In this document: positions 33,301 through 35,885 of the stretch, in pieces | Numbering within the stretch: the stretch's first letter is position 1 | Layout of the letters: every line of letters begins with the position of its first letter | Assembly (NCBI RefSeq): GCF_037975245.1 | Contig: NC_092568.1 | Span: 23,400,501-23,464,500 of the forward strand | Length of the DNA: 64,000 nucleotides | From: Apostichopus japonicus | Lineage: Eukaryota; Echinodermata; Holothuroidea; Aspidochirotida; Stichopodidae | Direction of reading: 5' to 3' | The notes under the pieces: model-generated | Told to the model about the DNA's origin: nothing | Databases searched by the model: none | Seen by the model: only the letters and a program-made list of their open reading frames with translations | Program-made: the position numbers and the translations under genes

Positions 33301-35885
33301 TTTTGAGCTACAGTATTTTATCACAACCTAATTCTACTTTTTGTGGAAAAAAAGAGTATTTTTCATATTGCACATGTATGGTTATTCTGTCACGATCTCT
33401 TTAGCAGTATGCATTGTCTATTGCCCAAACCATTATAGGTCTACACTGGGACACTCACCCCTCCTAAATTCTTCAGGCCTATTATGTGCTCAGACAGTTC
33501 ATTCAATTAATACAGTAGGCAACAGTCTATTGAGGTGAACTTCAATCCAGGGGGCTCAATAGAAACTGCTTTGAAACTATGTAAGGCACATGGGCCCAAT
33601 TAAAGTATTAAAGGCACAATGGCCCTATCGAGCCATTCACACAACCCAATGGAGCTACAACATCAGACTCATAGTCTCATACTAGACACTGTCATTAGAG
33701 TTCTGGGAATTATGTGTTTAAACGTCAGTTATTTACTCTGGAGGTCCAGCTTATATTCACTTTGCAAAATTGTTATGCCGAGCTTGACAGGTTCAACACT
33801 ATACAGGATTTTTTTAGTTTCATGTAACTTATATTTTAAGACACAAAAACATGTTCATAGTTCATACTGTAGTTTGCAAGAATTTAACAGAATACACTCT
33901 ATGTTGTGTTCATTGTTACTTGAGAGATCTACTTGGCGAGTGAGTTGTAAAAGTTACACTGTGAATATGTTTGCTCACTTTCCATGTTTTTTGGATGGTG
34001 TTGCATTATATATATGTAACAAGACAATGTGACATGTATAATATGACAAACCATAGCCCTAGGAGGCACCAAAAGTTTGATAGTTTGTCCATTCTCTAGA
34101 TTATGGAATTATGCATCTCAAATGAAAATAAAGTTGGTTGATTTGAGCATCCAATATATAATTATTTGAATTATTTATAATAGTCTAATAGGTAAACTCA
34201 CAAAGTTATAGATCATGGCTGTTCTTTGGATGTAACCCAACCCCCTACCATAAGATGCCAATTTCTTGTAGTTTCTATGCTCCTCCACAAGTTCCACATG
34301 ATTTTTTAGAAATTCTATATAATTTGAGGTTTTTCCCTCTTATAGGTGGGAAAAACCTCCCGGTAAAAACCCGGCCAACCCTGCTTGCAAGTTTTCAAAT
34401 ACATGCCCAATCTGAGATTCTTGTGCCTTTCATGGACACAGTACCAAGAATTATTTATAGAAGTCTTTACACTTATACAGTACAGCATTATATCAACTCA
34501 AAACATAGGTAATATTCAAAGGTTGAATTGCCCCCATAAGTTGCTAAACAACCTGTCAGATTGCTGACAATATGGCCAGGAGCTCTTTTGGTACACTTCA
34601 TTAAGGCCTAGCTGATCAGCTCCTTTTGGACACAATTTTTTCTTCTAGTAGAAATAAACAGAAAACAACAATAATGAATCATATGGGCAACCTTGTTGCT
34701 AATTTATAGAACTTTATCTTCACCATAAATCAGTTGAATAAAATAGTATTTCATGTTAATGAAATCATGAAGAGCCAATAGGTGGGAACTGGGAAGGGGG
34801 GGGAAGGAAAAAAACGGCTACTGAAGTTGAAAACATGGTAGGTTTGTACTGAACAGTCCCAAGGTAGAACAAGTGTAAAATGCTTGTTAGACAACTTGTG
34901 CCATTTATCCTATGAACTCTAACATATCAATATATATAGCATCCAATATATATTATTTAAATGATTGCAGGAGTCCTATTCAATGATCTTACAGAACGAC
35001 ATATATGAGTTGTGCTGAAATAATTGAGTAATGCCAGGTAAGATCATGGATTATCTGGTAAATGAGAGTTGCTGATGCCTAGTTTACCAAACATTTAATA
35101 ATCTAGGGAAATTTGGCAATTCAATTGCACTGACAAAATGTCCAATGACCAACTTTTAGGAATCAATGAGAGTTATGCATTAAGGGAGGCCGGTTCTGCT
35201 TGCACAGTACGCTGTTGTCTATGGCGTTGGTTAAAAATCCGATATTACAGAGGAAGCCAGGGTATCTACCGGCTTGTGTCTTTTCTGCTGATGATGGATG
35301 CTTGATGAGCTGGTCTGCAACTTGTGCAAGCATGTTCAACAGGAAAAATGAGCCAGGTTAAGATTTACAGAAACCTCTTACATTCTAAAATCACAGTTTG
35401 ATCCAATTGGGAAGAAATACGGATTCACCTTCTGATTTGGCGAAGATTCGAGTAAGATATTGTTACCATTTGTACTTTGGGGAGGTGCATAATTGTGCTT
35501 TGATACGCAAAGAGAAAATATCGCAAAACTGATCCATACTGCTAGTACCTTAGGGCATACCATTATTAACTGTGGCTACCAACTATAATTCTATAAGACA
35601 ACCGGCAAAAGAAGCCACAATATTACTTACGAAGCTCGTCGAAGTGTAGCTTTCACCACTGTCTTTGGTTGTTGAATTTTGAGATTCTAGAGCAAACGTC
35701 ATTATTAGTAAGGTGGCTGCCACCAAGGTTGCTATGCATAGGAATACAACTACTATCACGAAAAACAAGTTGCATTTTTGCGTGCCAGACTCATATCGTT
35801 TACTATCGTCTTCCATCATAGAGACTTTAGAATAACCTTTCGAAGCCGGTCGCTTCATTCCTCTAAATCGACGATTTCCGCCCAT
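21359..35885 (-). CDS. QPCTL: Glutaminyl-peptide cyclotransferase, QPCT/QPCTL family, complete, 8 exons (membrane-anchored form)
   Basis: Exons (minus): 35885-35631, 31711-31643, 27916-27770, 26634-26350, 24795-24640, 23711-23612, 23207-23094 and 21537-21359. All junctions are GT-AG and in phase, giving 434 residues. The enzyme converts N-terminal Gln (or Glu) of peptides to pyroglutamate with one zinc. Hallmarks: [27 protein letters not shown] (zinc ligand Asp227), IFFDGEEAF (catalytic Glu264, zinc Glu265), [30 protein letters not shown], and VWHTMDDN (zinc His393). Residues about 38-62 form one hydrophobic segment after a basic, cleavage-less N-terminus, typical of the Golgi type II form (QPCTL/isoQC). 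Exon 2 adds a 23-residue linker absent from any motif. Introns 1 and 2 hold transposon copies. An alternative first exon is listed separately. Confidence 0.95.
23255..23271. repeat. Poly-G tract (17 G) in a cyclase intron
   Basis: An uninterrupted G run lies 48 bases upstream (in transcript sense) of exon 7, where it reads as poly-C in the pre-mRNA near the acceptor. It could act as an extended pyrimidine tract. Confidence 0.9.
26880..27310. repeat. Diverged dispersed repeat, copy 1
   Basis: Shares ordered blocks with 51120-51620: tggttgtttgaatgtaa, gatttatccttgaaat followed by gatacatt, acattttcagc, and cactggaata followed by cc then aaggca. The order is the same with much substitution between blocks, which indicates an old interspersed repeat. 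Located in cyclase intron 3. Confidence 0.5.
27476..27541. repeat. (TA)n microsatellite
   Basis: About 33 TA units with one TTTATA interruption, in cyclase intron 3. Confidence 0.95.
28438..28690. mobile_element. Short interspersed element of the 'tatagcgc ... caaagcgctttata' type
   Basis: Starts with an AAT microsatellite, followed by atttatatagcgcataatcagc and gctcaaagcgctttataaat. These inverted halves (tatagcgc / gcgcttta) head a common non-coding repeat in marine invertebrate genomes. The remainder is A-rich. It lies in cyclase intron 2; exact ends are uncertain. Confidence 0.5.
29257..29270. repeat. Poly-G tract (14 G)
   Basis: Uninterrupted G run within a purine-rich stretch (29215-29275), in cyclase intron 2. 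Confidence 0.9.
29330..29745. repeat. Diverged direct repeat pair in cyclase intron 2
   Basis: The segment around 29350-29425 (tgtgtataatatgattatga, atacaatctgcatggat, gtgtgattca) recurs at 29668-29738 with the same order of blocks. The copies are about 318 bases apart, suggesting a local duplication that has since decayed. Confidence 0.55.
30536..31240 (+). pseudogene. Truncated LINE: C-terminal end of a non-LTR reverse transcriptase ORF plus 3' tail
   Basis: The reading frame 30548-30934 carries [34 protein letters not shown] and [16 protein letters not shown], the region just after the catalytic core in CR1/L2/jockey-like reverse transcriptases. After a stop, a shifted frame continues with [17 protein letters not shown], the usual closing motif, so at least one frameshift and a stop break it. 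The element ends with a TGAAC repeat (31221-31236), typical of CR1/L2-type tails. It is 5' truncated, lies antisense to the host cyclase gene in intron 2, and is inactive. Confidence 0.85.
31268..31476. repeat. 105-bp tandem duplication beside cyclase exon 2
   Basis: The unit starting cagtttcagagagaatag at 31268 is repeated from 31373, essentially identical over about 100 bases. It sits directly after the LINE tail and 170 bases from exon 2, indicating a recent duplication. Confidence 0.92.
31946..34383. mobile_element. hAT-like DNA transposon, non-autonomous, carrying a nested insertion
   Basis: The left end reads cagggttggcattttccc and the right end is the reverse complement of cagggttggccgggttttta, followed in both by a shared gtttttcccac. 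These give about 40 bp of imperfect terminal inverted repeat (left 31946-31986, right 34345-34383). A CAGGG-TTGGC start is characteristic of hAT elements. The flanks both carry cttgcaa, but the left copy is separated from the end by several bases, so the target duplication is not clean. No transposase is visible; the 137-residue ORF at 33619-34032 matches nothing I know. In cyclase intron 1. Confidence 0.65.
32078..33215. mobile_element. Nested non-autonomous DNA transposon with tandem 22-bp repeats as inverted termini
   Basis: The left end has cacttcgcccaacaacc, atttcgcccaactgcc and then about six units of catttcgcccaaccagcctggt (to about 32262). The right end is the mirror image from about 33028 (ggttgggcgaaatgac units) to gggcgaagtgac. 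Both ends are flanked by the direct repeat gtcagtaa (32070-32077 and 33216-33223), an 8-bp target-site duplication. The interior holds three to four diverged copies of a block with gttcgggaattgttaacgtt. No ORF of transposase type; superfamily unassigned. The 65-residue ORF at 32068-32265 is the repeat read in one frame. Confidence 0.8.
35429..35563 (-). CDS. Candidate alternative first exon of the glutaminyl cyclase, encoding a signal peptide (secreted form)
   Basis: Inside intron 1, an ATG at 35563 opens 45 codons that end at a donor (CAGAAG, then gtgaat) in phase 0. This is the phase of the membrane-anchor exon and of the start of exon 2 (31711). The N-terminus [21 protein letters not shown] is described here only by its parts: a short basic start (MVCPK), a hydrophobic core ([15 protein letters not shown]) and a polar stretch after it, a normal cleavable signal peptide. 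An in-frame TAG lies five codons upstream of the ATG. Splicing to exon 2 would give a 394-residue secreted enzyme. A second reading, as an internal exon entered by a cag acceptor just before TTAATAATG, would need a 61-base intron and is less likely. Confidence 0.55.

Follow-up and report, generated by a model that had tools for sequence, protein, structure and literature searches.

A single glutaminyl cyclase gene in the sea cucumber Apostichopus japonicus with candidate first exons for a secreted and a membrane-anchored enzyme

Some genes direct the same catalytic domain to two cellular compartments by means of alternative first exons, each of which supplies its own N-terminal address label. 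In the glutaminyl cyclase (QC) family, Drosophila has a pair of enzymes (PDB codes 4fai, CG5976 isoform B, and 4f9u, CG32412; both chains are presumably from this organism) that differ in cellular location. In vertebrates, the secreted form, QPCT, has a gene of its own. QPCTL (isoQC) carries an N-terminal anchor that keeps the enzyme in the Golgi, according to PMC13077600. Neither compartment-switching alternative first exons of glutaminyl cyclase nor QC isoforms in sea cucumbers were found among the matches listed in a literature search. We analyzed a 64-kb window of the Apostichopus japonicus genome (the whole stretch of 64,000 nucleotides, positions 23,400,501 to 23,464,500 of contig NC_092568.1; coordinates below are window positions, written in the direction of the minus strand). 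The minus strand of the window contains a complete animal-type QC gene, with core exons at 27916–21359. The explanation that we favor, and consider somewhat probable, is that this single sea cucumber gene has two alternative first exons predicted from the DNA: exon 1S (38494–38366), which would give a secreted enzyme, and exon 1A (35885–35631), which would give an anchored one. Exon 1A starts 2.6 kb beyond 1S, inside the first intron, and both exons end in phase 0 and can splice to the first conserved exon, E3, at 27916.

The locus resembles vertebrate QPCT in its catalytic core, which scores 377.7–387.1 bits against 3si2 (a QPCT chain that we take to be from mouse), in a predicted signal-peptide first exon ending in WTREK where 3si2 has WTQEK, and in a next exon of 49 residues. 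Unlike QPCT, the secreted sea cucumber form would share its locus with the anchored form. Vertebrate QPCTL is matched by the predicted type II anchor at the N-terminus of 1A and by the border between exons E3 and E4, which corresponds to the start of QPCTL exon three. However, the sea cucumber core is nearer to QPCT, and the anchors are compared here by membrane type. The Drosophila pair belongs to the same enzyme family and also supplies two forms per animal, but from two separate genes.

The six core exons, E3 to E8, together encode 326 residues followed by a stop codon. E3 (27916–27770) has 49 codons, begins at a phase-0 acceptor and aligns to QPCT, as does the catalytic exon E4 (26634–26350), which starts at human QPCTL residue 118. 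E5 (24795–24640, carrying FFDGEEAF), E6 (23711–23612) and E7 (23207–23094, carrying IQDDHIPF) were placed by homology and splice-site scoring, and E8 (21537–21359), which carries VWHTMDDN, is the last coding exon and includes the stop. The acceptors of the six exons score between 3.4 and 8.1, on approximate, generic splice matrices that are not fitted to sea cucumbers. The E3 acceptor is strong, with a score of 6.57 that is equalled by 49 of 7119 AG sites. In the protein formed by 1A and the core, Pfam recognizes an M28 domain (PF04389, 4.6e-34, residues 166–394), as expected of an animal-type QC, and all six conserved QC motifs, which we assume to be those of the active site, occur in order within the part aligned to QPCT. 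This protein scores 377.7 bits against QPCT 3si2 versus 284.0 bits against QPCTL 8xfv (8xfv and the QPCT chain 9isd are taken to be human), so that by pairwise scores the core is nearer to QPCT than to QPCTL; it also matches 4fai with 236.6 bits and 4f9u with 222.1 bits. E8 begins with G-MNR-IIHLI (21500–21537), one residue more than GV-PVLHLI of QPCT, just ahead of WHTMDDN.

A search of the whole genome (671,581,487 bases in 35 contigs) with the QC core returned six matches, all of them its own six exons (seven of seven candidates scored). Human QPCTL, used as a sensitivity control for distant copies, gave five matches, all in the QC gene, with 36–56% identity, four of them at E 4e-6 or better and the weakest at E 0.26 (six of six candidates scored). 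A preliminary description of this DNA had asked whether the genome contains a second QPCT gene, and neither search detected a second QC locus in the assembly. If the assembly contained a second animal-type QC gene, about as similar to this one as this one is to QPCTL, it should have been detected. Two additional loci with PF04389 hits (L002 and L003) were considered as a second QC and rejected, as their frames (those of L002, which cover the L003 match) are not QC-like; they read like what we presume to be carboxypeptidase Q. Because no second QC gene was found in the assembly, the idea of one locus for two enzyme forms, already put forward in the preliminary description, is strengthened.

Exon 1S, which reads MDNFRRFGWFVILLLSLNMAFSLRVRGGAGRSRKRKPQWTREK, begins with MDNFRRFGWFVILLLSLNMAFS, ends with QWTREK and is followed by the donor AAG/GTGATT in phase 0. 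Hydropathy and the −3,−1 rule predict a signal peptide; the start context is AAAATGG, and an in-frame stop lies upstream. A scan for signal-peptide-like open reading frames (ORFs) that end at a phase-0 donor scoring 3.5 or more detected sites at 38494, 35563 and 24933 on the minus strand, the last of which lies across E5. A slightly different filter of the same scan added a fourth minus-strand site at 39308, and with both filters none was found on the plus strand of the window. The four ORFs, which include both 1S and the ORF at 35563–35429 (hereafter 1B), compare with a chance rate of about 0.3 per 64-kb strand, estimated from 30 simulated sequences.

The junction formed by 1S and E3 aligns without gaps to WTQEK-NHHQPAHL of 3si2. 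When all GT sites preceded by five open codons were compared with mouse WTQEK (5322 sites, both strands), WTREK of 1S reached the top score of 27; the runner-up scored 22 and has a very poor donor, and SPNQK, the end of 1B, scored 11, a value attained by 29 sites. Joined to the core, 1S gives 387.1 bits against 3si2, ahead of 1B by 7.4 bits (379.7) and of 1A (377.7). Against the full-length chain 9isd, the values are 376.7, 374.1 and 369.6 bits for 1S, 1B and 1A, respectively. The gain over 1A in the QPCT matches is therefore 7.1–9.4 bits for 1S versus 2.0 (3si2) to 4.5 bits (9isd) for 1B.

The exon borders of the vertebrate genes are in line with a direct junction between a first exon and E3. 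The 49 codons of E3 equal in number the residues between WTQEK and HIMQR in 3si2. PMC13077600 lists two QPCT variants for mouse, one of 362 and one of 313 residues, which differ by 49, and the simplest reading suggests that mouse QPCT exon 2 corresponds to E3 and that mouse exon 1 ends at WTQEK; the human QPCT variants of 361, 284, 117 and 137 residues in that paper have no bearing on the exon border. Human QPCTL exon three is there assigned to residues 118–211, and its start falls exactly on the E3/E4 border. Human QPCTL would then have two exons ahead of that border, which fits a first exon plus E3 without an extra exon 2. Most likely, the secreted start at this locus is 1S, and not 1B, spliced directly to 27916.

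In the preliminary description, 1A (anchor) and 1B (signal peptide) were the alternative first exons, and both were joined to an exon 2 at 31711. We consider this arrangement very improbable, although the frames are open and the phases and GT donors agree with what was claimed. The 85 open codons of 1A have a length that is a multiple of three, are followed by GT and encode a type II-like N-terminus; 67 bases separate 35631 from 35563; 1B has 45 codons with a hydrophobic start, followed by GT; and the proposed exon 2 (31711–31643) consists of 23 open codons, also a multiple of three in length, and then GT. The donor of 1B is good (AAG/GTGAAT; 3.96, 88 of 7220 GT sites as good), as is its start context, AATAATGG; the rarity of signal-peptide-like ORFs with a donor in the simulated sequences and the gain of 1B over 1A in the QPCT matches also speak for this arrangement. 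By contrast, the codon use of 1B is noncoding-like. For the codon test, the training set comprised 13,037 codons of 30 receptor genes found in this genome (30 of 149 matches; 30 of 30 loci read); its noncoding set, taken from the window and the receptor flanks after stretches with few different codons had been dropped, may contain unannotated exons. In this test, 117 of 388 noncoding ATG-ORFs score as well as 1B, and 35 of 600 coding segments score as low. For short exons, a low score counts only weakly against coding, because two of the true exons have low scores as well: 437 of 1940 noncoding stretches do as well as E3, and 181 of 1633 as well as E5. An earlier version with a small training set, now superseded, pointed in the same direction for 1A and 1B (noncoding ORFs as good: 1 of 19 and 85 of 174, respectively) and gave 29 of 193 for 1S. 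Moreover, 1B would require a separate promoter in the interval from 1A to 35563, since a transcript started upstream reaches the start codons of 1A first, and the upstream 1S is the better QPCT-type signal-peptide exon.

A different account of 1B, to which we give about equal weight for and against, holds that it is not a first exon: its signal peptide would be a translated acceptor tract, and 35497–35429 would either be an in-frame stem exon, placed after 1A by a 133-nt intron, or remain unused. Pyrimidine-rich tracts translate as hydrophobic residues, and the hydrophobic stretch of 1B is the translation of ATCAGTTTTGCGATATTTTCTCTTTGCGTATCA, directly before the AG ending at 35498. The acceptor-like site at 35497 is preceded by TTTGCGATATTTTCTCTTTGCGTATCAAAG, and 294 of 7119 AG sites are as good. 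A scan of 35630–21300 for phase-0 exons on the same strand (acceptor score at least 2, at least 12 codons) ranked E4, E5, E3 and E6 as the four best and returned just two other candidates, one of which is 35497–35429. The stem-exon version is weakened by the moderate acceptor and by the noncoding appearance of the 23 codons (−2.8 bits), and simple non-use would also account for 1B. Either version is compatible with 1S and 1A as the alternative first exons. The role of 1B as a signal-peptide exon is doubtful; it may contain a small stem exon that follows 1A, or no exon at all.

The proposed exon 2 fits both first exons in phase, but its acceptor at 31711 is poor (−2.73), a score reached by roughly one AG site in four (1682 of 7119), and the acceptor of E3 is also in phase 0. 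Among 9264 noncoding stretches, 2632 match the codon score of exon 2, and 8612 do so when only synonymous use is counted, and it was not recovered by the phase-0 exon scan with its required acceptor score of at least 2. Exon 2 is doubtful because 1S and 1A can both join 27916 directly in phase, and its constitutive use is improbable. The preliminary description thus holds in its proposal of one locus for both enzyme forms, but its secreted start is likely to be replaced by 1S. Exon 2 resembles the end of 1A (YTSTSF/YSSANF) with a local score of 17, which none of 500 shuffles reached (mean 9.4). The two share the donor GTAAGT, and the best of the other 23 minus-strand GTAAGT sites scores 15, that of the 16 plus-strand sites 12. 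A duplication of the 1A end as the origin of exon 2 is suggestive at most.

Two repeat structures lie near exon 2. Just downstream, at 31267–31474, is a perfect 103-nt repeat in two copies whose starts are 105 nt apart. The QC intron also contains a foldback element (32088–33205) with opposed arrays of a 22-nt unit (like GGTTGGGCGAAATGACCAGGCT) around approximately 760 nt; its arms of 136 nt show 88% complementarity, which rises to 100% over two shorter stretches (58 and 46 nt).

Exon 1A, with 85 codons and the donor TTC/GTAAGT in phase 0, encodes a type II-like membrane anchor that would be joined to the catalytic core, and it looks like a real coding exon. Its top 19-residue segment (mean 3.11) is more hydrophobic than that of any other open stretch in the window (2382 in all), and 1A is the sole type II-like ORF with a usable donor there; 30 simulated sequences gave 0 per strand. 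None of 46 noncoding ATG-ORFs of like length matches its codon score, and two of the 46 do so on synonymous use alone. Among 600 true coding segments, 304 score no higher, which places 1A in the middle of the range of real genes. An interpretation of 1A as a repeat or a gene-family member was unsupported: its DNA matched only itself in a genome search that skips very common words, and its protein gave one other match (24% at E 9.6). Approximately 400 bases upstream of 1A, at 36300–36690, lies what may be a small inverted-repeat transposon, whose ends resemble CAGTGGCGGAGCC and CCGCTCCGCCACTG.

The properties of 1A bear on a further alternative, in which the gene uses only 1S and makes a single secreted QC, and 1A either begins another transcript, unrelated or unannotated, or is an ORF that arose by chance. 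The homology of 1S to vertebrate QPCT is the clearest of all, the core is nearer to QPCT, and the donor of 1A is weak on its exon side, all of which fit this alternative. It accords less well with the coding-like character and the extreme membrane segment of 1A. In addition, the exon scan of 35630–21300 yielded no partner exon for 1A of comparable quality other than the QC exons. We regard the use of 1S alone as possible but not probable.

Several observations weigh against the use of both 1S and 1A. The preliminary description had called both of its first-exon donors good; the phases are right and this applies to 1B, but the donor of 1A is perfect only on the intron side, with a score of −0.46 and 899 of 7220 GT sites as good. 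The first ATG of 1A has C at −3. Pfam gives no match to 1A above the cut-off, the best of five sub-threshold matches being Anoctamin at E 0.0041, and the link of 1A to the QC exons is drawn from position, strand and phase, because the QPCTL chains in the PDB lack the anchor. For 1S, the lead over 1B is just 2.6 bits on 9isd, and the codon use is only mildly coding-like: 39 of 432 noncoding ATG-ORFs do as well, a number that rises to 85 when synonymous use alone is counted, and 156 of the 600 coding segments have no higher score. The use of both exons is predicted from sequence, and many thresholds were set after the locus had been seen.

With 1S and 1A as alternative first exons, we infer the following scheme. 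Each exon would have its own promoter. Transcription from 1S would lead to a soluble enzyme that is routed into the secretory pathway, and transcription from 1A to an enzyme with the same catalytic domain that stays tethered to Golgi or secretory membranes, its active site facing the lumen. Both forms would act on secreted peptides, cyclizing glutamine or glutamate at the N-terminus to pyroglutamate.

Other features were noted outside the QC gene. The plus strand of the window has a 410-codon open frame with acidic runs at 46515–47744, without a Pfam match, and the minus strand a Ras/Rab-type GTPase exon at 15478–15687 (Pfam Ras, 5.8e-8). Elsewhere in the assembly, the 16,099-base contig C35 carries a COX1 in which AAA must be read as Asn for the normally invariant stretches STNHKDIG, GFGNWLIP and PRMNNMSFW to come out as expected, a code used by echinoderms and flatworms. 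The 31-kb contig C29 (L018, L019) has five COX1 matches that need TGA read-through, as in the mitochondrial code; this array is either a mitochondrial concatemer or a nuclear copy.

The correction of the secreted start matters in itself, as the signal-peptide exon to seek in transcripts is 38494–38366 and not 35563–35429. Should 1S and 1A both be in use, a single echinoderm gene would cover the work of the vertebrate QPCT/QPCTL pair. A speculative and rather unlikely extension is that an ancestral deuterostome QC gene had both first exons, that sea cucumbers kept them, and that the vertebrate duplicates each lost one to become QPCT and QPCTL. With both first exons in use, the locus would provide a clear and testable case of how a duplicated gene pair can divide two pre-existing isoforms, and it would bear on the compartment in which echinoderm neuropeptides gain their pyroglutamate.

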